From: an uncultured Bacilli bacterium
GTDB taxonomy: Bacteria > Bacillota_I > Bacilli_A > RF39 > UBA660
Direction of reading: 5' to 3'
Length of the DNA stretch: 40,193 nt
Assembly (NCBI GenBank): GCA_944372455.1
Contig: CALVZF010000010.1
Location: 1 to 40,193, forward strand
The position numbers and the translations under genes were made by a program. The notes under the pieces are model-generated. The model worked only from the letters and a program-made list of their open reading frames with translations, was not told where the DNA came from and ran no database searches. Positions 139 through 40,193 of this stretch are shown piece after piece. How positions within the stretch are numbered: position 1 is the first letter of the stretch; every line of letters begins with the position of its first letter.

Positions 139-849
139 ATGAAAGAATATTTTGGTAGATTGTATAGTAATACTTCAAAAAATTTTTATAATGCATTATA
201 CAATAACTTAAAAAATGCGCATAAACAATTTATAATAACTGCAAATCCAGAAACATTTATGAAAGCAGAGCAAGATCAAACTATAAACAAAATGTTACTT
301 GATGATAGTGTTACAATAGTTCCAGATGGTATAGGAATAGTTAAAGCAGCTAAAATGTTAAGTTTTGATATTAAGGAGAGAATTCCTGGAATAGATATTG
401 CAAATAAACTTTTAGAATATGGTAACAAATTAAATAAAACAGTATATTTATTTGGTGCTAAAGAAGAAGTTATAAATTCTTTAAAAAAAGTGATAAAAAA
501 AGAATATCCAAATTTGAAAATAATTGGTGCTAAAAATGGATATGAAAAAGATCGTGATAAAATTTTTAAAGATATAGTAAAAAAAGAACCAGATATAGTT
601 CTTGTTGCCTTAGGTATACCAGAACAAGAAAAACTAATCTATAAATATTTAGATAAATTTAATAAAGGAATATTTGTGGGAGTAGGTGGTTCATTTGATG
701 TAATAAGTGGACATAAGAAAAGAGCCCCAAAGTTTTTTATAAAAACAAATACAGAATGGTTATATAGAATATTAAGAGAACCAAAAAGAATAAGAAGGTT
801 TTATGATAGTAATATAAAATTTATGTTTAAAATTAGTAAAATAAAATAA
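139..849 (+). CDS. tagA: WecG/TagA family glycosyltransferase (GT26)
   Basis: This protein of 236 residues most likely transfers N-acetylmannosamine from UDP-ManNAc onto undecaprenyl-PP-GlcNAc, the second step of a wall-teichoic-acid-type linkage unit, at the inner face of the membrane. Family motifs are visible: TANPETFM near residue 34, PDGIGIV with the expected catalytic Asp at about residue 63, RIPGID, LVALGIPEQE, and GVGGSFDVISG followed by a basic C-terminal tail (EWLYRILREPKRIRR) that contacts the membrane in this family. Length is normal. A UDP-GlcNAc 2-epimerase (4091) and a TagO-like transferase (6068) in the same region supply the donor and the acceptor. Family assignment is firm. 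The exact sugar (ManNAc or the ManNAcA used by WecG) is inferred from the absence of a UDP-ManNAc dehydrogenase here. Confidence 0.88.
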   Translation: MKEYFGRLYSNTSKNFYNALYNNLKNAHKQFIITANPETFMKAEQDQTINKMLLDDSVTIVPDGIGIVKAAKMLSFDIKERIPGIDIANKLLEYGNKLNKTVYLFGAKEEVINSLKKVIKKEYPNLKIIGAKNGYEKDRDKIFKDIVKKEPDIVLVALGIPEQEKLIYKYLDKFNKGIFVGVGGSFDVISGHKKRAPKFFIKTNTEWLYRILREPKRIRRFYDSNIKFMFKISKIK

Positions 850-883: not shown

Positions 884-1597
884 ATGAAAGTATTAATAAT
901 AATTCCAGCATATAATGAAGCTTTAAATATAGAAAAAACGGTTAGAAAAATTAAAAATATTCAAAAAAGCTCTGAAGATATAATTGATTATGTAGTTATA
1001 AACGATGGAAGTACTGATGATACACTTGAAATTTGTAGAAAAAACAACTTTAAAGTAATACCATTAATTGAAAATTTAGGTATTGGCGGTGCAGTACAAA
1101 CTGGTTATAAATATGCACTTATACATAATTATGATATTGCTATACAATTTGATGGAGATGGACAACATGATGAAAAATATATAAAAAATATAATAGAAGA
1201 AATAAAAACTGGAAATGATTTTGTAATAGGATCTAGATTTGTTAAAAAACTAAGTAAATTTACATCAACTGGAACTAGGAGATTAGGAATCAAATTTCTT
1301 TCTTTTCTAATTAAATTATGTACAAAAAAGAAAATATATGATCCAACTAGTGGATTTCGTGGAGGAAATCGCGAAGTTATAAAAATCTTTTCTAAACATT
1401 ATCCAGTTGAATATCCAGAACCCGAATCTACAGTTTGTATAATAAAGAAAAAGCTCAAAGTAAAGGAAATTCCCGTAGAAATGCACGAAAGAGAATTTGG
1501 AACCTCTTCAATTAAGCCACTTAAAAGTATTTATTATATGTTTAGTGTTTCAATAGCTATTATTGTCACTAGTATTTGGAAAAGAGGAAAAAAATAA
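884..1597 (+). CDS. Family 2 glycosyltransferase, polyprenyl-phosphate sugar synthase-like
   Basis: This 237-residue GT-A enzyme resembles the DPM1/GtrB group, which moves a sugar from a nucleotide donor onto undecaprenyl phosphate. The N-terminus reads IIPAYNEALNIEKTV, followed by VINDGSTDDT, NLGIGGAVQTGYKYA, the metal-binding FDGDGQHD, VIGSRF and SGFRGGNREVI, all typical of the group. The C-terminal 25 residues contain one hydrophobic stretch that may anchor it. It ends one base before the next start codon and heads a coupled cassette with DUF2304, EamA-like and DUF6020-like genes. That arrangement suggests it charges the lipid carrier for a later extracytoplasmic transfer. The sugar transferred cannot be read from sequence. 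Galactose or glucose are possible because galE is nearby. Confidence 0.85.
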   Translation: MKVLIIIPAYNEALNIEKTVRKIKNIQKSSEDIIDYVVINDGSTDDTLEICRKNNFKVIPLIENLGIGGAVQTGYKYALIHNYDIAIQFDGDGQHDEKYIKNIIEEIKTGNDFVIGSRFVKKLSKFTSTGTRRLGIKFLSFLIKLCTKKKIYDPTSGFRGGNREVIKIFSKHYPVEYPEPESTVCIIKKKLKVKEIPVEMHEREFGTSSIKPLKSIYYMFSVSIAIIVTSIWKRGKK

Positions 1598-1598
1598 T

Positions 1599-1952
1599 AT
1601 GGATTTTACACTTAAAATATTTTTGCTATTAATACTATTATTTCAGTTTATATTAATTGTTAAAACAATAAGAAGAAAAAAATTATCTATGAAATATGGA
1701 AGTTTTTGGATTTTCCTTCTTATTATAATGGCTATTGTAGTTATTTTTCCGAATATTCTGTTTAAATTGTCAAATTTATTTGGATTTGAGGTTGCCTCAA
1801 ATATGATATTTTTAATTGGTTTCTTTTTCTTGTTTTATATTATATTTATATTAACAACTAGTATTTCTATTCAAAATGAAAAAATAAAGTTATTAATTCA
1901 AGAAATTTCTATATTAAAAGAAAGCGTTGATAAAGATGGAAAGAAGGATTAA
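1599..1952 (+). CDS. DUF2304 family membrane protein
   Basis: This is a 117-residue protein with three predicted membrane helices (about residues 5-22, 33-53 and 66-85) followed by a charged, probably coiled helix (about 86-112). I chose ATG 1599 over the upstream TTG at 1563 because a GAGG ribosome site lies at 1584-1587 and because this start sits one base after the preceding stop. Size and topology fit DUF2304, a family of unknown function usually found beside GT2 polyprenyl-phosphate glycosyltransferases, as here. A role as helper or membrane anchor of the GT2 enzyme, or in handling the lipid-linked sugar, is inference from this neighbourhood. Confidence 0.75.
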   Translation: MDFTLKIFLLLILLFQFILIVKTIRRKKLSMKYGSFWIFLLIIMAIVVIFPNILFKLSNLFGFEVASNMIFLIGFFFLFYIIFILTTSISIQNEKIKLLIQEISILKESVDKDGKKD

Positions 1953-2307
1953 AACTGTGAATATAATTCTATTTATTATATATGTAATTTTATCCTCATC
2001 CGGATTAGTTTTATTTAAATTGGGTACAACTAATACTAATATAAATTTTAACTTATTTGGAGTTCATTTAGCTTTTTCATTAAAGATGATAATTGGAATA
2101 CTTTGTTATGGATTTAGTTTTTTATTATGGTTATACTTAGTTAGTAAACTAAATCTTACAATAGCTATGCCCTTATCAGTAGCGTTAGTTAATACACTTG
2201 TTATAGTTGAGTCATGTATATTTTTAAATGAAAAAATTACACTGATACAAGGAATTGGGATTTTTATAATTATACTTGGAGTTAGTTTGATTGGTTGGAG
2301 GAAATAA
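1936..2307 (+). CDS. Small EamA/SMR-like four-helix membrane protein
   Basis: This protein of about 123 residues has four hydrophobic helices and resembles half of a drug/metabolite transporter, like the ArnE/ArnF subunits that flip undecaprenyl-phosphate-aminoarabinose or small multidrug resistance proteins. FKLG after the first helix, MPLSVALVNTLVIVES in the third, and FLNEKITLIQGIGIFIIILG are typical of the superfamily. It overlaps the DUF2304 gene by 17 bases. The start could also be TTG 1927; neither has a clear ribosome site, so translation is probably coupled. Its position between a sugar-lipid synthase and a large membrane protein suggests a flippase for undecaprenyl-phosphate-sugar. 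This is an inference, not shown by a motif. Confidence 0.72.
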   Translation: MERRIKTVNIILFIIYVILSSSGLVLFKLGTTNTNINFNLFGVHLAFSLKMIIGILCYGFSFLLWLYLVSKLNLTIAMPLSVALVNTLVIVESCIFLNEKITLIQGIGIFIIILGVSLIGWRK

Positions 2308-2308
2308 T

Positions 2309-4054
2309 ATGACCTTTTTAAAAAATAAGAAAATACATATTAGAAATATAATATTTTCTATATTAACATATATAGCCTTTCTGATATATTTTAAAAGCTT
2401 ATTTAATTCTAAGTCTTACGATATATTAGTTACATTTATTTACTTTTTAATATTAATTTTTTATTATAAGTATGATATTTCAAGTAATAAACGAGCGAGA
2501 AAGTTTTCTATTATATTAGCTTTAATTATAAGTATTTTGTTATCTATTGGCAATACAGTTTATCCAGTAGTCTATAATAAAGCAGTAAATATTTTTAATT
2601 TAAAAAATACAATATATACAATTGTTTGTATTTTGGGATTATTTTTATTTTTTACAAGAATCTTTTACCTAATGTTTACTAATTTAAATAAAATAAAAAT
2701 GTTTGAAAATAAAGCAAATACTAAATTTGATTTAAAATTATTTTTTATTTTCTTAATAATAATTCTAATTTGTTGGACACCATATTTTTTAAGATATTTT
2801 CCAGCTATTATGACGTCAGATTCTTATTATGTAATTCACTATGCAAATGAAAAAATATTAAGTGATTTTCATACCTTTGGTCATACATGGTTTTTTGGAA
2901 TATTTTTTCATCTAGGTAAATTACTTTTTAATAATATGAATGCTGCTGTTGCATTATCAACAATTGTTCAAATGCTTTTAATGGCTTCAATCTTTTCATA
3001 TTCAATCATTTATTTACGTAATAAAGGTATAAATAAATTTTTTTGTATAATTTGTTTGTTAATTTATTCTCTTAGTCCACTTCATGCACATTATAGTATT
3101 ACTTTGTGGAGAGACATAGTATTTGGAGGAGCTTTTGTATTATTATTTACTACCCTTTATGAATTTGTAACAACAAACAAAAAAATTAAAAATTCTACTA
3201 TATTTTTATTTATTATTTCTATTTTATTAATATTATTTTTTAGAAATAATGGAATATATATATGTATTCTATTGTTACCATTTATTTTATTTTCAAAAAT
3301 ATCATATAAAAAAATGATTTCTATTGTTTATATTATAATTTTAACTTTTTATTTTATTATAAAAGGTCCCATTTTTGATTATTTTAATATTGAAAAATCT
3401 ACAACTATAGAGGCTTTTTCCATTCCACTACAACAAATTGCTAGAACTATTTCACTAGATAAAAAAATTGATGAAAAGGATAGAATTTATTTATCACAAA
3501 TCATGAATACAAATTTAATTAAAGAAAGGTATGCTTCTGCAATATCTGATCCAATTAAAAATTTAACGAATAACCAAAAATTATCTCAATCAAAAGGTAA
3601 GTTTATTACTTTATGGTTTAAATACCTTGTTAAATATCCAAAGGTTTATTTTGAAGCTTATTTTACTCAAACATTGGGATATTGGTATCCAAACGTAGAA
3701 TATTGGGCAACTGGAATGGAAAGCAAAAGTATATTTGAAGACATAAATGTATATAGTGATCCTATAACTTCAAATAACTTTAATAAAGTTATTGATCTTA
3801 GTACCTTAAGAAAAATTCCATTTTCTAATTTAATATGGAGTTGTGGTACAACAACCTTTATTTTAATAATTTCATCCTTTATTTTTATTTATAACAATAA
3901 AGTAAAATATATATTGCCATACATACCATTATACCTACTGTTATTTTCTATTTTAATATCAACTCCAGTATTTAGTGAATTAAGGTATGTATATGGTATA
4001 TTTGCTTGTGTTCCTTTATTGTTAACGATTCCGTTTTTAAAAATTAAAAATTAA
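2309..4054 (+). CDS. Large polytopic membrane protein, DUF6020-like, possible GT-C glycosyltransferase
   Basis: This 581-residue protein has roughly 11-13 hydrophobic helices. ATG 2309 is the start because GGAGG at 2297-2301 precedes it at ideal spacing, one base after the previous stop. After the first helices comes RYFPAIMTSDSYYVIHYA (Asp at about 171) and then a His/Trp-rich stretch (HTFGHTWFFGIFFHLG). An acidic residue in the first outer loop is typical of GT-C enzymes, and the layout resembles DUF6020 proteins of Gram-positive surface loci. A second soluble part lies near residues 430-490 (QTLGYWYPNVEYWATGM). It probably takes a sugar from a polyprenyl phosphate and puts it on a surface polymer. 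Function is inferred from topology and the GT2/DUF2304/EamA neighbours. Confidence 0.7.
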   Translation: MTFLKNKKIHIRNIIFSILTYIAFLIYFKSLFNSKSYDILVTFIYFLILIFYYKYDISSNKRARKFSIILALIISILLSIGNTVYPVVYNKAVNIFNLKNTIYTIVCILGLFLFFTRIFYLMFTNLNKIKMFENKANTKFDLKLFFIFLIIILICWTPYFLRYFPAIMTSDSYYVIHYANEKILSDFHTFGHTWFFGIFFHLGKLLFNNMNAAVALSTIVQMLLMASIFSYSIIYLRNKGINKFFCIICLLIYSLSPLHAHYSITLWRDIVFGGAFVLLFTTLYEFVTTNKKIKNSTIFLFIISILLILFFRNNGIYICILLLPFILFSKISYKKMISIVYIIILTFYFIIKGPIFDYFNIEKSTTIEAFSIPLQQIARTISLDKKIDEKDRIYLSQIMNTNLIKERYASAISDPIKNLTNNQKLSQSKGKFITLWFKYLVKYPKVYFEAYFTQTLGYWYPNVEYWATGMESKSIFEDINVYSDPITSNNFNKVIDLSTLRKIPFSNLIWSCGTTTFILIISSFIFIYNNKVKYILPYIPLYLLLFSILISTPVFSELRYVYGIFACVPLLLTIPFLKIKN

Positions 4055-4090: not shown

Positions 4091-5194
4091 ATGATTAAAG
4101 TTATTACTATTTTTGGTACTAGACCAGAAGCAATTAAAATGGCACCACTAGTTAAAGAACTTAAAAGTAGAAAAGAAATTGAAACAATTGTGTGCGTAAC
4201 TGCGCAACATAGACAGATGTTAGATCAAGTATTAAATATATTTAATATTAAACCAGATTATGATTTAAACATAATGAAGCAAGGACAAACATTAGGAGAA
4301 GTAACTACTAGAGCATTACAAGGGCTTGAAGAAGTAATTAAAGAAACTAAGCCAGATATAGTACTTGTTCATGGTGATACCACTACAACGTTTGCAGGCT
4401 CCCTTGCTGCTTTTTATAACCAAGTATCAATAGGCCATGTTGAAGCAGGACTTAGAACTTGGAATAAATATTCACCTTATCCAGAAGAAATGAATAGGCA
4501 AATGGTGAGTTGTATGACCGACTTACATTTTGCTCCAACAAAACTTAGTGCAGAAAATTTAATTAATGAAGGAAGAGATCCTAAAAATATTATAATTACT
4601 GGAAATACTGCAATAGACGCTATGAAAACTACTATAAATAATAACTATACTCATGAAGTTTTAAATTGGGTAGGTAATGATAGAATGATACTTTTAACTG
4701 CACATAGAAGAGAAAATTTGGGAGAACCTATGTATCACATATTTAGAGCTATCAAAAGAATTGTAGATGAGTTTGACGATGTAAAAGTAGTTTATCCAAT
4801 TCACATGAACCCTAAAGTTAGAAATATTGCAAATGAAATTTTAGGTAATTGTGACAAAGTTAAAATAATAGAACCTTTAGAAGTAGAAGATTTTCATAAT
4901 TTTCAAAATAAAAGTTACATTATTTTAACGGATAGTGGGGGAATACAAGAAGAAGCGCCTTCACTTGGTAAACCAGTTTTAGTTCTTCGTGATACTACTG
5001 AAAGACCAGAAGGAATAGATTCAGGTACTTTAAAACTTGCAGGGACAGATGAAGAAAATATTTATCAGCTAACAAAAGAATTACTTATTAATACTGAAAT
5101 TTATAAGTCAATGAGTAATGCTTCCAATCCTTATGGTGATGGACTAGCAAGTAAAAGAATAGTTGACGAAATAATTAAAAGGTTTAAAAAATAA
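4091..5194 (+). CDS. wecB: UDP-N-acetylglucosamine 2-epimerase (non-hydrolysing)
   Basis: This 367-residue enzyme converts UDP-GlcNAc to UDP-ManNAc in the cytoplasm. Family hallmarks are clear: FGTRPEAIKMAPLVKEL at the N-terminus, VHGDTTTTFAGSLAAF, GHVEAGLRTWNKYSPYPEE, DLHFAPT, LTAHRRENLG, and DSGGIQEEAPSLGKPVL followed by RDTTERPEG. Length matches WecB/MnaA. A strong AGGAGGG site lies about 10 bases before the ATG. It provides the donor for the TagA-like transferase at 139. The same gene is often called mnaA in Gram-positive teichoic acid pathways. Confidence 0.96.
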   Translation: MIKVITIFGTRPEAIKMAPLVKELKSRKEIETIVCVTAQHRQMLDQVLNIFNIKPDYDLNIMKQGQTLGEVTTRALQGLEEVIKETKPDIVLVHGDTTTTFAGSLAAFYNQVSIGHVEAGLRTWNKYSPYPEEMNRQMVSCMTDLHFAPTKLSAENLINEGRDPKNIIITGNTAIDAMKTTINNNYTHEVLNWVGNDRMILLTAHRRENLGEPMYHIFRAIKRIVDEFDDVKVVYPIHMNPKVRNIANEILGNCDKVKIIEPLEVEDFHNFQNKSYIILTDSGGIQEEAPSLGKPVLVLRDTTERPEGIDSGTLKLAGTDEENIYQLTKELLINTEIYKSMSNASNPYGDGLASKRIVDEIIKRFKK

Positions 5195-5215: not shown

Positions 5216-5953
5216 ATGAAATGTATTTTATTATGTGCAGGTTATGCGACAAGATTATTCCCATTAACAGAAAACTTTCCCAAAGCTTTATTAAATATTG
5301 GAGAAAAACCACTTTTAGATTATATTCTGGATGAAGTTAATAGTGTCAAAGAAGTGAATAAAATATATGTTATAACTAATGATAGGTATTATAAACACTT
5401 TAAAAAGTGGACAAATAAAAAAAATAATCCTAAAGAAATAAAAGTTATAAATGACAATACAACTTCTAATGATGACAGATTAGGAGCAATAGGGGATATA
5501 ATGTATTTAATTGAAAAAGAAAATATAAATGATGATTTACTCATTATTGCAGGAGATAATTTATTTACATACAAACTTAAAGATGTAATAAATTTTTATA
5601 ATTCAAAACAAAAAAGTGTATTATGTGCCAAAGAACTAGATGACATTGAGCTTTTAAAAAGATTTGCAGTCGCATCAGTTGATGATTTTAACAGAGTGGT
5701 AGAATTGGTTGAAAAACCAGAAAAACCTAAAAGTAATCTAGGAGTTTATGCTACTTATATATATCCAAAAGAAATTATTAAATATTTTAATAAATATAAA
5801 GAAGAAGGAAACAATATGGATTCACCAGGACATTTCCCACAATATCTTTACAAAAAAGAAGATGTGTACGTATATAAATTTAATGGTGAGTGTTACGATG
5901 TAGGAACTCATGAAACTTTAAAAGAAGTAAATGAATTGTATAAGAAAAAATAA
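5216..5953 (+). CDS. Sugar-phosphate/alcohol-phosphate nucleotidyltransferase
   Basis: This 245-residue protein belongs to the RmlA/GlmU-type nucleotidyltransferases, which couple an NTP to a phosphorylated sugar or alcohol. The signature is LCAGYATRLFPLTENFPKAL at residues 4-23. IIAGDNLF near residue 120 holds the metal-binding Asp, and VELVEKPEKPKSNLG and CYDVGTHETLKEVNELY close the fold. It is shorter than RmlA (about 290) and lacks the left-handed helix of GlmU, so it is closer to LicC/short NDP-sugar synthases. Substrate is unknown. It is the last gene before the terminator at 5971 and probably makes an activated precursor for the same polymer. Confidence 0.85.
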   Translation: MKCILLCAGYATRLFPLTENFPKALLNIGEKPLLDYILDEVNSVKEVNKIYVITNDRYYKHFKKWTNKKNNPKEIKVINDNTTSNDDRLGAIGDIMYLIEKENINDDLLIIAGDNLFTYKLKDVINFYNSKQKSVLCAKELDDIELLKRFAVASVDDFNRVVELVEKPEKPKSNLGVYATYIYPKEIIKYFNKYKEEGNNMDSPGHFPQYLYKKEDVYVYKFNGECYDVGTHETLKEVNELYKKK

Positions 5954-6034: not shown

Positions 6035-6067
6035 TATATTATACTAAAAAAACGGATGGTGAATTTT

Positions 6068-7153
6068 ATGACTTTAACAATTAACGAAATAATAAAAATA
6101 GTACTTATCACATTTTTGTGTTCAGCTCTTTTAGTTCCATTTATAAAAAAAATTGCGGAATACGTTGGGGCACTAGACATGCCAAATAAAAGAAAAGTAC
6201 ATAAAGAACCTATACCAAGATTAGGTGGTCTTGCAATATTTTTCTCATTTTTACTTGGATATATGTTATTTGCTAAACAAAATATAGAAATGCTTTCTAT
6301 ATTGATTGGTAGTTTTGTAGTAGTACTTACTGGTATTATAGATGATATTAAGCCATTACAAGCTAAGTATAAATTTGCTGGTCAATTAATAGCTGCCTTA
6401 ATAGTAGTCTTATACGGTGGAATCTCTCTAAATGATATAACAGCATTTGGATTCTATATTAGCTTTACACCAATAGTCGCAAAAATTTTAAGTGTTATTT
6501 TTATACTAGGGTGTATTAACTGTATAAATTTAATTGATGGATTAGATGGACTTGCAAGCGGAATTAGTTCTATATATTTTTTAACAATAGGAATAATTGC
6601 CATGTTAATGGGACAATCTGTTAGTTTAGATGTATCACTTACATTTATCATGTTAGGAGCTACACTAGGATTTTTAATTCATAACTTTTATCCTGCCAAA
6701 ATATTTATGGGCGATTCAGGTTCAATGTTTTTAGGATTTATCATCTCAGTAATTGCACTTCTAGGATTTAAAAATGTTACCTTTACTTCATTTTTAGTCC
6801 CATTATTTGTACTAGCAATTCCAATATTAGATACATTGTTTGCAATAATTCGTAGAATATTAAAAAAACAACATATCTCAGAACCAGATAAAAATCATTT
6901 ACATCATCAATTTTTAAATATGAGATTTTCTCATAGAAATACAGTATTAATTATTTATTTAATTGATATATTATTTGCAGCTGCTTCAATTATATATTCA
7001 TTAAAAGATCCACTATGGGGACAAATTATATATACAGTATTACTAATAATTGTTGTGTGGTTAGTAACATTTACCGATATTATTACACCTAAAAAACCAT
7101 TAAAAAAAGGTTTTGAGAAAATTAAAAGTAAAATTTCAAAAAGTAAAAATTAA
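6068..7153 (+). CDS. tagO: WecA/TagO/MraY family UDP-GlcNAc:undecaprenyl-phosphate GlcNAc-1-P transferase
   Basis: This 361-residue, roughly 10-11-helix membrane enzyme starts lipid-linked polymer synthesis by putting a sugar-1-phosphate on undecaprenyl phosphate. Motifs are intact: NKRKVHKEPIPRLGG near the N-terminus, GIIDDIKPLQAKYKFAGQL, NCINLIDGLDGLASG, IHNFYPAKIFMGDSGSMFLG, and the cytoplasmic HLHHQFL. ATG 6068 is preferred over ATG 6056 because the latter lies inside the ribosome site (GGTGA at 6058-6062). It stands alone between a promoter and a terminator. The TagA-like and epimerase genes nearby favour TagO over MraY. MraY proper normally sits in the division/cell wall cluster, which is not in this window. 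Confidence 0.9.
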   Translation: MTLTINEIIKIVLITFLCSALLVPFIKKIAEYVGALDMPNKRKVHKEPIPRLGGLAIFFSFLLGYMLFAKQNIEMLSILIGSFVVVLTGIIDDIKPLQAKYKFAGQLIAALIVVLYGGISLNDITAFGFYISFTPIVAKILSVIFILGCINCINLIDGLDGLASGISSIYFLTIGIIAMLMGQSVSLDVSLTFIMLGATLGFLIHNFYPAKIFMGDSGSMFLGFIISVIALLGFKNVTFTSFLVPLFVLAIPILDTLFAIIRRILKKQHISEPDKNHLHHQFLNMRFSHRNTVLIIYLIDILFAAASIIYSLKDPLWGQIIYTVLLIIVVWLVTFTDIITPKKPLKKGFEKIKSKISKSKN

Positions 7154-8206: not shown

Positions 8207-8605
8207 ATGAAAAAAATAGAATTACAAAAATATAGAGAAGTAATTATGTATTTAATATTTGGTGTATTAACTACACTCGTAAATATAGTATCATTTTTTC
8301 TACTATCTGATATATTAAAAATAAACTGGATGCCTTCTAATGTAGCTTCTTGGATTATTTCAGTATTATTTGCATATTTTACAAATAAAAAATATGTATT
8401 TGATAGTAAAAATAAAAAAATTATTAAAGAGTTTATTTCATTTGTTTTATTTAGAGTATTATCACTAGCAATAGATATGGCAACTATGTATTTATTAATA
8501 GATATTTTAACAGTTGATACAATGATATCAAAAATAATTTCAAATGTAATAGTTGTAATTTCAAATTACATATTTAGTAAATTTATTATTTTTAAAAAGC
8601 AATAA
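8207..8605 (+). CDS. GtrA family membrane protein
   Basis: This 132-residue protein has four membrane helices and GtrA hallmarks: YLIFGVLTTLVNIVSFFLL at the start, NVASWIISVLFAYFTNKKYVF in the middle, and a C-terminal helix ending SKFIIFK. GtrA proteins are thought to help move or position undecaprenyl-phosphate-linked sugars during surface glycan modification. GGTG overlapping the galE stop serves as ribosome site. With galE it could provide lipid-linked galactose or glucose to the glycosyltransferases upstream, which is an inference from position. Confidence 0.88.
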   Translation: MKKIELQKYREVIMYLIFGVLTTLVNIVSFFLLSDILKINWMPSNVASWIISVLFAYFTNKKYVFDSKNKKIIKEFISFVLFRVLSLAIDMATMYLLIDILTVDTMISKIISNVIVVISNYIFSKFIIFKKQ

Positions 8606-9885: not shown

Positions 9886-11895
9886 ATGGCCAAAAAACAA
9901 AAAAATAATTTTATTAACAAAATTAAAAAATTAAATCTTAGAGACAAAAGAATATTAATTATTACTATTGTAAGTATATTATCGCTTTTATTATTAGCAT
10001 CTACTTCATTTGCATTATTCATAAGTAGAAATTCTACTGAAGAAAAAAATCTTTATCAAACAGGTGATTTAACTGTTGTATTTGATGATACTACAGGAAA
10101 TGCTATAAATTTAAATCCTGCACAACCTATTAGTGATGAAGCGGCTAAAAAATTAGATCCTTATACTTTTACAATAGAAAATAAAGGGGATTATATTGTT
10201 ACCTATCAAATATTTATTAATGATGTAGCAGGAACAACTGAAGAACAGTCTAAAAAAATTCCTAAAAATTTTTTAAAATACCAATTAAATAATGAAACAA
10301 TTTCTACACTTGACACTTTAAATAATAATATGTTAAAAGAAGGAGTAATATATCCTGGACAAAAATTTACATTTGATTTAAGAATCTGGCTTGATTATAA
10401 TACTACTTCTTCTATTGAAGGTTATAATTATAAAGGGAAAATTTCTATTTCTGGAAAAGCTATTCAGGGGGATACAAGTGGCGCAAATGCACCAGAATTA
10501 ACAGATAATATGATTCCAGTAATTTATGATGATAATAGTCATAGATGGGTTAAAGCTGATACTACCAAAGAATGGTATAATTATGATCAAGGAATGTGGG
10601 CAAATGTAGCTATAATTTATAAAGATAGAAAATGTGTTGAATGGGATGGAATTACAGGTGATGTAAATAAAGATGGAGATTTGTCTGAAGAAGATGGTCA
10701 AATAATTCTGAATGTACACACTGGTCAAGATAAACCAGGAGACTTAACAGATGGTGAATGGTTAATAATAGCAGATTTTAATGGTGATGGGCAAGTAAAT
10801 AGTAATGATGCAATGGCAATATGGATCTATCTAAGTTCAAACCAAAGAATATTTTGTTCTAGCGATAATCAAACTCAAAATATGTCTTTAGAGGAATATC
10901 AATCGGCTGATCCTGGAACACCTATTAACTTAAACGATGTAGAAATGCTTTATGTATGGATACCAAGATATAAATATAGAATAAATAATACAGGGAGTAC
11001 AGCCTTACCAAGTATGATAGATGTAGAGTTTGAAAGTGGTGTTACATCAACTGGAGTAAGTATAAATACTAACGGAGTAGCTAAAACAGAATATTATACT
11101 CACCCAGCATTTAGAGATGGAAGTAAAGTATATAAAAGTACTCCTTATGATCAAGGAGGCTGGGATAAAGAATTAACTGGTTTTTGGGTTGAAAAATATG
11201 AAGGCTATTCTATGAATAATGTACCAAATAATACAGTTAATCAAAGTATAGTAAATAACATATTAATTGATCAAGAATGGCATTTGATGAAGAATACAGA
11301 GTGGGGAGCAATTGCATACCTAAGTCAAAGTAAATATGGAAAGATGGGTAATACTAATTATACAGGAGCTAATAAAGAAATTTATATAAATAATAATTCT
11401 AATCTTTATGTAGGAAGAAGTAGTGGTAATCCAAATGCTTCTGCAAATCTATCCGGTGGATATACTTATAATGGACTTGGGTGTAAAATCACAATGTGTA
11501 ACCAAAATAGAGATTTATTAAAAGGAACAGGGGCAAGTACCACAGGAACAGTATACGGAATATATGATATGAGTGGAAACGCTAGTGAATATGTTGCATC
11601 AAACTATAATAATTCGTTAGCTTCTTCAGGAATAGAACCAGAATTTTTTACAACAGAATCAAATAAAAAATATTATGATAGTTATACTCCAGATAAAACC
11701 TATATTTTAGGAGATGCCACAGAAGAAACAAAAGGATGGTATAATGATAGTGCAGTAGCAATGGATATAGATAACCCATTCTTAACAAGAGGGGGAGACT
11801 ATAACCAACAAGCAAGTGCCGGTATCTTTAATTTTGAAAATGCTACAGGAGCAGGAGGATCAACTATAACGTCACGATTCATTATAATTCCATAA
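9886..11895 (+). CDS. SipW-type secreted surface protein with internal dockerin and FGE/C-type-lectin-like C-terminal domain
   Basis: This 669-residue protein has a basic start, then a hydrophobic segment (about 24-45) ending in STSFALFISRNSTEEKN and LYQTGDLTVVFDD. That matches the TasA/camelysin type of signal cut by the ER-type peptidase SipW. Residues to about 195 form a beta-rich TasA-like domain. Residues about 260-320 hold two Ca-binding dockerin repeats (DVNKDGDLSEED and DFNGDGQVNSND). From about 350 to the end is a domain like the formylglycine-generating enzyme/C-type lectin fold: YVWIPRYKY, EWHLMKNTEWGAIAYLS, YGIYDMSGNASEYVASNY and TRGGDYNQQASAGIF. The catalytic C-terminal cysteines of FGE are absent, so a binding role is more likely. 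A GGAGGT site precedes the ATG. Confidence 0.8.
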   Translation: MAKKQKNNFINKIKKLNLRDKRILIITIVSILSLLLLASTSFALFISRNSTEEKNLYQTGDLTVVFDDTTGNAINLNPAQPISDEAAKKLDPYTFTIENKGDYIVTYQIFINDVAGTTEEQSKKIPKNFLKYQLNNETISTLDTLNNNMLKEGVIYPGQKFTFDLRIWLDYNTTSSIEGYNYKGKISISGKAIQGDTSGANAPELTDNMIPVIYDDNSHRWVKADTTKEWYNYDQGMWANVAIIYKDRKCVEWDGITGDVNKDGDLSEEDGQIILNVHTGQDKPGDLTDGEWLIIADFNGDGQVNSNDAMAIWIYLSSNQRIFCSSDNQTQNMSLEEYQSADPGTPINLNDVEMLYVWIPRYKYRINNTGSTALPSMIDVEFESGVTSTGVSINTNGVAKTEYYTHPAFRDGSKVYKSTPYDQGGWDKELTGFWVEKYEGYSMNNVPNNTVNQSIVNNILIDQEWHLMKNTEWGAIAYLSQSKYGKMGNTNYTGANKEIYINNNSNLYVGRSSGNPNASANLSGGYTYNGLGCKITMCNQNRDLLKGTGASTTGTVYGIYDMSGNASEYVASNYNNSLASSGIEPEFFTTESNKKYYDSYTPDKTYILGDATEETKGWYNDSAVAMDIDNPFLTRGGDYNQQASAGIFNFENATGAGGSTITSRFIIIP

Positions 11896-30479: not shown

Positions 30480-31871
30480 ATGAATAAGGAAAAAAGAAAT
30501 ATTTTACTATCAATAGTTGGGATAATAGTTTTAATAGCAGGAATTGCTGGCTTAACTATCGCATATTTTAGATCACGTGCAGAAAGTGAGAAATTTATAA
30601 TAACTAGTAAATCAATGACTATAAAATTTGATGATCCTGATGGTTCATTAATTAGAGCTACTGAAATAGAACCAATAACAGAATCAGAAATTTTAACTAA
30701 AGCTACTAAAAAAACTTTTTCTATTTCAAAACTTGAAAATACTTCTAAAGATGTCTATGTAAAAATAGGCTTAGGAAATTTAAGCTTAACTGATAATTTT
30801 AAAGATTACGATTTAAAATGGGCATTGTATCAAGGAAATAATAAGGTTACAACAGGAACATTTGTGCAAACATTAGATGGAAGTACAAGTATAAATTTAG
30901 CAAACAATATTTTATTAAATAGTACAACTCCTATTGAATATAACTTATATATTTGGATTAATGAAACGAACCAAGATCAATCAGAATTAATGAATGGAAC
31001 TTTAACTGGTAAAATAATAGTAGATGGTGAAACTTATCAAAGAAATACTTTGGCAGGTAACATATTAAAAGAAAGTGTTAAAACAAATACACCAAACTTT
31101 AATTTTAATACAGGAACACAAATAATAAATAGTGAAGATCCATATAATACAATATATGATATAACAGATGAAAAAGGATTATATGTACAACAAAATGATA
31201 GTAGTAAAAGTGCCTTTGGTTTTCCAGTATATTACTATAGAGGAGAAGTAACAAATAACTATGTATCTTTTGGAAATTATATATGGAGAATAATGGGAAT
31301 AAATGAAGATGGAACGATAAAATTAATAAAGAGTAGTGATATAGGTGCATACAAATATTCAAGTAGTGAAGAATGTGGTGATGAAACAGGTAATTGTGAT
31401 AATCAAAATGGATATGAAGAAAGTAATATAAAAACAACAGTTGAAAATTGGTATACAACGAATTTAACTTCCGCACAAAGTAATAAAATAGTAACACATT
31501 CATATTGTTCTAATAATTTAGAGAGTACAAAACTTACTCAAGCAAGCTTTGTATGTGATAATAGTAGTGAAATAGTAAATACCAAAATAGCAATTCCAAC
31601 AACAGATGATTTATTATATGCAGGATTATTTGAAGAAGACTCTGGAAGGACAGTACAAAACTATATAGGAAATACAAGTGATGCATTTACAATGACAAGA
31701 ATTGCAAGCGTTCCTAATAATAGATATGTATATTCATTTAATCGTGGAATAGTAAATGATTATGGCTTAGTTGGAAGAAGTTTTAGAGTAATTCCTATTA
31801 TTAATTTAAAAGCTGATACTATTATTTCCGATGGTAATGGAACTGAATCAAATCCTTATGTTATTGGATAA
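30480..31871 (+). CDS. SipW-type secreted surface protein, paralogue of the protein at the right edge
   Basis: This 463-residue protein has a basic start, a hydrophobic segment (about 9-28) ending GLTIAYFRSRAESEKF, then SKSMTIKFDDPDGSLIRA: the TasA/camelysin-like signal recognised by SipW. Residues about 30-185 form the TasA-like beta domain. The rest holds a domain of unknown role common in gut Bacillota surface proteins (FGNYIWRIMGINEDGTIKLI, four cysteines at about 298-365, ending RSFRVIPIINL and ESNPYVIG). The N-terminal module is very similar to the partial protein at 39793 (shared FKD-DL-WALY block) and more distantly to the one at 9886. It is monocistronic, with a strong promoter and terminator, so it is probably abundant. 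Function is unknown. Confidence 0.8.
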   Translation: MNKEKRNILLSIVGIIVLIAGIAGLTIAYFRSRAESEKFIITSKSMTIKFDDPDGSLIRATEIEPITESEILTKATKKTFSISKLENTSKDVYVKIGLGNLSLTDNFKDYDLKWALYQGNNKVTTGTFVQTLDGSTSINLANNILLNSTTPIEYNLYIWINETNQDQSELMNGTLTGKIIVDGETYQRNTLAGNILKESVKTNTPNFNFNTGTQIINSEDPYNTIYDITDEKGLYVQQNDSSKSAFGFPVYYYRGEVTNNYVSFGNYIWRIMGINEDGTIKLIKSSDIGAYKYSSSEECGDETGNCDNQNGYEESNIKTTVENWYTTNLTSAQSNKIVTHSYCSNNLESTKLTQASFVCDNSSEIVNTKIAIPTTDDLLYAGLFEEDSGRTVQNYIGNTSDAFTMTRIASVPNNRYVYSFNRGIVNDYGLVGRSFRVIPIINLKADTIISDGNGTESNPYVIG

Positions 31872-39792: not shown

Positions 39793-40193
39793 ATGGAAGA
39801 AGAAAAAAATAAAAAGAAGATGATTCTAGCTATAATAGGAGCAATAATCTTAGTAGCGGGAATTGTAGGTCTTACCTATGCATACTTTAGAGCTCAAGCA
39901 GAAAGTAAAGATATAGTAGTAAGTAGTAAGAAGTTATCAATAGTATTTAGTGATCCAGAAGGCTCACTAATAAGAGCAAGTGATATAGAACCAATTGCAG
40001 ATGAAGATATAGATACACTAGGAACAAAGAAAACATTCACAATCGCAAAAAAGGATGATAACGATAAAGATGTATACTTAAGATTAGAACTAACAGACTT
40101 AGAAGTAAGTGATAACTTTAAAGATAGTGATTTAAGATGGGCACTATATAAAAGTGGAAGTATAGTAACAGAAGGAAGTTTTGTAAATGTAAA
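39793..40193 (+). CDS. SipW-type secreted surface protein (partial, runs off the window)
   Basis: The first 133 codons are present and the frame is open at the window end. The protein starts MEEEKNKKKMILAIIG, has a membrane segment (about 9-30) ending GLTYAYFRAQAESKD, then SKKLSIVFSDPEGSLIRA and the SDNFKDSDLRWALY block. It is a close paralogue of the N-terminal module of the protein at 30480 and carries the same TasA/camelysin-like, SipW-type signal. AAGGGAAG is the ribosome site. What C-terminal domain it carries lies outside the window. Confidence 0.82.
   Translation, partial: MEEEKNKKKMILAIIGAIILVAGIVGLTYAYFRAQAESKDIVVSSKKLSIVFSDPEGSLIRASDIEPIADEDIDTLGTKKTFTIAKKDDNDKDVYLRLELTDLEVSDNFKDSDLRWALYKSGSIVTEGSFVNV

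Follow-up and report, generated by a model that had tools for sequence, protein, structure and literature searches.

A 40,193-nucleotide stretch of DNA from an uncultured Bacilli bacterium (contig CALVZF010000010.1 of assembly GCA_944372455.1; hereafter the window, positions 1-40,193, + strand) carries a cassette of four genes that very probably encodes a GacIJKL-type transmembrane glycosylation system with four components, in which an SMR/EamA-type flippase stands in for Wzx and a GT-C glycosyltransferase of the DUF6020 family stands in for the PMT_2 enzyme. The first gene encodes a GT2 protein of 237 amino acids that resembles the polyprenyl-phosphate sugar synthases GacI, WpsA and PpgS (884..1597; PF00535, 94 bits) and has no transmembrane (TM) segment. 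It is followed by a GacJ/WpsB-like DUF2304 protein with three TM segments (1599..1952; PF10066, 87 bits), an SMR-type EamA protein with four (1957..2307; PF00892), which is a probable lipid-sugar flippase subunit, and a DUF6020 protein of 581 residues with about thirteen (2309..4054; PF19484, 137 bits). All four genes lie on the + strand.

In the mechanism that we propose, DUF2304 would anchor the GT2 enzyme at the inner membrane face and activate it, and the GT2 enzyme would load a sugar, probably GlcNAc or GalNAc, from a UDP-sugar onto undecaprenyl phosphate. The EamA/SMR-type protein, probably as a dimer, would bring this sugar on its lipid carrier across to the outer leaflet, and the DUF6020 enzyme would use it outside the cell to decorate a teichoic-acid-type polymer. 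This polymer would be built by TagO, WecB and TagA, together with the products of TagD-like and glycerophosphotransferase genes found on another contig.

Predicted GT-C fold of the DUF6020 protein

An AlphaFold2 model of the DUF6020 protein, built from an alignment of 46 homologues, reached a mean predicted local distance difference test (pLDDT) score of 90.5 and a predicted template modelling score of 0.92. When the model was compared with solved structures by VIA-align, it superposed best on Pmt4 (Z 17.4, 322 residues, 4.2 Å), followed by ALG12 (Z 16.0), ArnT (15.2), AglB (15.2) and PglB (14.5). The top 40 rows were all GT-C enzymes or complexes containing one, and unrelated rows appeared only from Z 5.8. 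The match spans residues 133-581, and residues 1-130 form an added N-terminal extension of four TM helices. In the model, therefore, the 581-residue protein has a GT-C fold, as the original prediction had supposed when it named this protein as the possible acceptor enzyme. It matches PF19484 and gave no match to PF13231 at E values up to 1, and thus does not belong to the PMT_2 family of GacL. PDB sequence searches with the DUF6020 protein, and likewise with the DUF2304 and EamA proteins, gave no relevant match.

Four residues, P165, D171, D269 and R312, are invariant in the 46 DUF6020 homologues. In the model, D171 (codon 2819..2821) lies in the first outer loop, at the start of a short helix after the first TM segment of the GT-C core (residues 142-162). 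An acidic residue is thus predicted to sit where GT-C enzymes have theirs, making D171 a candidate catalytic base.

Proposed sugar loading, the flippase slot and their recurrence

The GT2 protein carries the sequence DGDGQ at residues 90-94 (bases 1151-1165), which fits DxDxQ, a motif put forward as characteristic of the polyisoprenyl-phosphate glycosyltransferases (PMC10821137). Its best NCBIfam model is PpgS (84 bits, below the cut-off of 370), and its best solved relative in the PDB is dolichol-phosphate mannose synthase DPMS (5mlz, E 5e-17); ArnC was also matched. As in GacIJKL-type systems, the membrane partner gene lies directly 3' of the GT2 gene. DUF2304 had been taken to lack an established function, a view now out of date: the domain is typical of GacJ-like proteins (PMC8327497), and GacJ and WpsB raise the activity of the GT2 enzymes GacI and WpsA, with complex formation known for GacJ (PMC10821137, PMC8327497). 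By analogy with these homologues, the DUF2304 protein of the window would bind and activate its GT2. The GT2s that adjoin DUF2304 are mostly 232-286 amino acids long and had no TM segment in the one examined, whereas those of DUF6020-GT2-GtrA loci without DUF2304 have 306-319 amino acids, and each of three that were inspected has two TM helices. This contrast fits a role for DUF2304 in replacing the missing membrane anchor.

To determine how often these families occur together, we surveyed 241 genomes of the order. DUF6020 was found in 86 genomes, DUF2304 in 85, and both in 46. In 21 of these 46, DUF6020 lay on the same strand within 2 kb downstream of DUF2304, compared to 0.05 pairs expected by random placement. 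The count is inflated because the genomes are related to one another, but the pairing turns up in several different architectures spread over the DUF6020 tree. DUF2304 and DUF6020 thus adjoin each other far above chance in relatives, as the original prediction required. In a phylum-wide search DUF6020 occurred mostly in this family, with few matches outside. In L036 and L040, a GT2 protein with a polytopic N-terminal part lies upstream of DUF2304; it matched DUF6020 only weakly and was not used.

The order GT2-DUF2304-EamA-DUF6020 occurs in the window and in loci L016, L018, L019, L096 (cut by the contig end before GT2), L097, L099 and L102. GtrA takes the place of EamA in L015, L020, L021, L026, L029, L030, L032, L033, L106 and L112. 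GT2 and DUF2304 are followed by a single GtrA-DUF6020 chain of 730-764 amino acids in L022-L025, L027, L028, L031 and L034, and both domains were confirmed by Pfam in all five fusion proteins tested. A further arrangement, DUF6020-GT2-GtrA without DUF2304, is found for instance in L076, L079-L081, L083, L085, L086 and L088. Among 75 distinct loci, the slot after DUF2304 was held by EamA in 18, by GtrA in 14 and by the GtrA-DUF6020 fusion in 8. Wzx filled it in at least three (L014, L069 and L070; three of the unlabelled genes tested). The charge-flip-transfer order proposed in the original prediction is supported by the GT-C model and by the adjacency of DUF2304 and DUF6020, and the fusions and swaps in the flippase slot lend it added support.

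Some loci showed other arrangements. In L104:5485-7758, a GT28 C-terminal domain precedes DUF6020 in one fused protein, and GT2-DUF2304-GtrA comes next. In L052:3355-4521, directly after DUF2304, a GT2 catalytic domain is fused to an EamA-like 4-TM domain, whose EamA match is below the Pfam cut-off. In L012:1-1479, a polytopic DUF6077 protein directly follows GT2-DUF2304 and is possibly another unassigned transferase in the same slot.

The EamA protein was modelled with four helices (pLDDT 81.8), and the model superposed on the SMR proteins EmrE (Z 12.7, 105 residues, 2.6 Å) and Gdx-Clo (Z 11.6), consistent with a 4-TM SMR fold. The third gene is thus of the EamA/SMR type and not, as GacK is, of the Wzx family. 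We did not assign it to ArnE or ArnF proper, because the scores fell well below the cut-offs of both models (ArnF 34 bits against 99, ArnE 22 against 92).

Several observations weigh against the proposed system. The Foldseek matches of the DUF6020 model, among the best of which were PMT, OST and ArnT, had weak E values (best 0.009, none below 0.001). Our literature search found no paper naming DUF6020, hence no biochemistry is known for it, and a GT-C fold, here a modelled one, is by itself no proof of transfer to a polymer. The EamA protein scores barely above its Pfam cut-off (31 bits against 28) and lacks the EmrE-type Glu in TM1. In addition, the window retains a separate GtrA flippase-like gene in the same locus (8207..8605, + strand; PF04138, 96 bits), and in L095, whose DUF6020 is the closest relative of the window protein (Shimodaira-Hasegawa-like approximate likelihood ratio test support 100%), the cassette has no EamA and a GtrA gene follows WecB. 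The GtrA at 8207 may therefore be the actual flippase, with EamA exporting a metabolite or only stabilizing the complex. We regard this as unlikely, since EamA fills the slot held elsewhere by GtrA, the GtrA fusion or Wzx, and since the flippase proposed for a three-component system of this kind in Citrobacter is a 4-TM protein resembling ArnE, although the authors state that flipping by such proteins was not directly shown (PMC11127046).

A second difficulty comes from Lactococcus, where the product of WpsAB serves as primer for an oligosaccharide and not as donor of a single sugar (PMC10821137). By the same logic, the GT2-DUF2304 pair of the window could make a lipid-P-GlcNAc primer that cytoplasmic glycosyltransferases extend, EamA or Wzx flips, and DUF6020 attaches or polymerizes as an oligosaccharide. 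Loci L039, L041-L043 and L048, in which GT2-DUF2304-EamA is followed by further GT2 genes, would suit such a pathway. However, neither the window nor the GtrA and fusion cassettes contain another glycosyltransferase between the charging and GT-C genes. Moreover, single lipid-linked sugars are generally associated with SMR and GtrA proteins, and oligosaccharides with Wzx. We consider oligosaccharide priming quite improbable here, and retain transfer of a single sugar.

Locus context and the putative acceptor

The cassette is inserted between genes for TagA/TarA (WecG/TagA/CpsF), the linkage-unit ManNAc transferase (139..849; PF03808, 191 bits), and the UDP-GlcNAc 2-epimerase WecB (4091..5194; TIGR00236, 541 bits, cut-off 210). 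Further downstream on the same + strand lie genes for a nucleotidyltransferase of the sugar-nucleotide type (5216..5953; PF00483) and for the initiating phosphoglycosyltransferase TagO/WecA (6056..7153; PF00953, 136 bits). Open reading frames (ORFs) and Pfam matches bear out the positions and families predicted for the four genes and both neighbors, as well as the outer spacing: 34 bases separate the end of TagA at 849 from the start of GT2 at 884, and 36 bases separate the end of DUF6020 at 4054 from the start of WecB at 4091. The tight coupling claimed within the cassette holds for the two 1-base gaps, between the GT2 end at 1597 and the DUF2304 ATG at 1599 and between the EamA stop at 2307 and the DUF6020 ATG at 2309. 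The 17-base overlap between DUF2304 and EamA, however, requires EamA to start at ATG 1936; a start at GTG 1957 leaves a 4-base gap. GTG 1957 follows 9 bases after AGAAGG, a motif consistent with a ribosome-binding site, and in the cassettes of L016, L019, L059 and L096 the same motif precedes an ATG at the corresponding place. The overlap is thus probably a matter of the start codon chosen, and the spacing would then be 1, 4 and 1 bases.

The insertion between TagA and WecB, in a teichoic-acid-type pathway as predicted, is repeated in L095, L097 and L099. The order TagA-GT2-DUF2304-EamA-DUF6020-WecB is found also in L097, and in L099 with an extra PMT_2 gene. At this locus L059 contains a PMT_2-like gene, scoring below cut-off, and lacks a recognizable DUF6020. 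The wall teichoic acid gene set (TagO, WecB/MnaA, TagA, glycerophosphotransferase and LCP ligase) is present in the genome, with the glycerophosphotransferase and the single LCP ligase on contigs other than the window. In contig C16 of the same genome (G000), Wzx-like and CDP-glycerol glycerophosphotransferase domains are fused in a protein of 891 amino acids (L125:7414-10089), adjoined by a cytidylyltransferase of TagD size. DUF2142, another GT-C family, was not found in this genome. C16 and the start of the window share no overlapping sequence, and that they join is suggested only by the gene order in L097 and L099. From these gene neighborhoods, a teichoic-acid-type polymer appears the likely acceptor.

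A somewhat unlikely alternative is that the same machinery serves another acceptor: DUF6020 would then glycosylate lipoteichoic acid or a surface protein, and its place in the teichoic-type locus would be one of convenience only. Protein O-mannosyltransferases are indeed among the nearest fold matches of DUF6020, and DUF6020 cassettes are found outside TagA/WecB loci too. On the other hand, the position between TagA and WecB is conserved in the three loci named above, and a congener (G001) fuses a PMT_2 GT-C enzyme to TagA itself, in one ORF of 737 amino acids directly before WecB (L127:8016-10229). We therefore retain the teichoic-acid-type polymer as the acceptor. Further along its locus, the congener has a GtrB-like GT2 of 314 amino acids and GtrA, and so carries, as judged from its genes, another glycosylation system in the same place.

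Other features of these loci were recorded. Two adjoining ORFs in G001 (204 and 223 amino acids, L127:11324-12699) resemble the two parts of a single polytopic protein that has been interrupted, and match no Pfam family above cut-off. A fusion of an O-antigen-ligase-like domain with a GT4 glycosyltransferase recurs (L125:97-2655, L097:1067-3775, L099:2-2443, L127:3114-5885), upstream of TagA in L097, L099 and L127 and at the edge of contig C16 in the genome of the window. Three proteins encoded in the window (9886-11895, 30480-31871 and 39793-40191) resemble one another in an initial single TM segment and probably form a surface protein family; a motif of the form S(K)(S/K)(M/L)(T/S)I.F.DP(D/E)GSLIRA occurs in closely similar versions in the last two.

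Comparison with known systems

These results give DUF6020 a testable role and place DUF2304, EamA and GtrA proteins in a single scheme of exchangeable parts. The GtrA-DUF6020 fusions and the repeated flippase swaps should make it easier to test whether GtrA and SMR proteins truly flip lipid-linked sugars. Since the congener carries a different system at the same locus, a variable surface polymer is indicated for these uncultured gut Bacilli. Going further, and only tentatively, DUF6020 may be an unrecognized GT-C family of uncultured gut Bacilli that acts as an interchangeable last step with EamA, GtrA (also fused) or GT2-GtrA, flippase and transferase forming a physical unit that hands over the lipid-linked sugar directly.

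Three-component systems such as GtrA-GtrB-Gtr(type) and CsbB-GtcA-YfhO likewise charge, flip and transfer through a GT-C enzyme. The relatives in which DUF6020 accompanies GT2(310)-GtrA pairs resemble these Gtr-type systems; unlike in the cassette of the window, their GT2 has its own two TM helices and no adjoining DUF2304. In ORF12-ORF14-ORF15 of Citrobacter youngae (the GT136 system) and in ArnC-ArnE/F-ArnT, too, the flippase is an ArnE-like 4-TM protein that works alongside a GT-C acceptor enzyme (PMC11127046), but these systems differ in their pentofuranose or Ara4N chemistry, in the absence of DUF2304 and in their GT-C families. WpsA-WpsB of Lactococcus and EpaI-EpaJ of Enterococcus share the pairing of GT2 with a DUF2304 partner, and WpsA also has DxDxQ, but a longer repeat unit is built on the WpsAB product and the pathways described for both pairs include neither EamA nor DUF6020.

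The closest counterpart is GacI-GacJ-GacK-GacL, which adds the side chain of the Streptococcus pyogenes group A carbohydrate and has the same four roles in the same gene order: a GT2, a DUF2304 activator, a flippase and a GT-C transferase whose acceptor is a wall polysaccharide (PMC8035078, PMC10821137). The two differ in the flippase, a Wzx-type protein of 428 amino acids in GacK and an SMR/EamA protein of roughly 116-123 here; in the transferase, PMT_2 in GacL and DUF6020 with a 4-TM N-terminal extension here; and in the backbone, polyrhamnose for GacIJKL and a TagO/WecB/TagA-type locus here. The four-component scheme is thus already known as GacIJKL, and the cassette is a variant of it whose flippase and GT-C enzyme come from different families.

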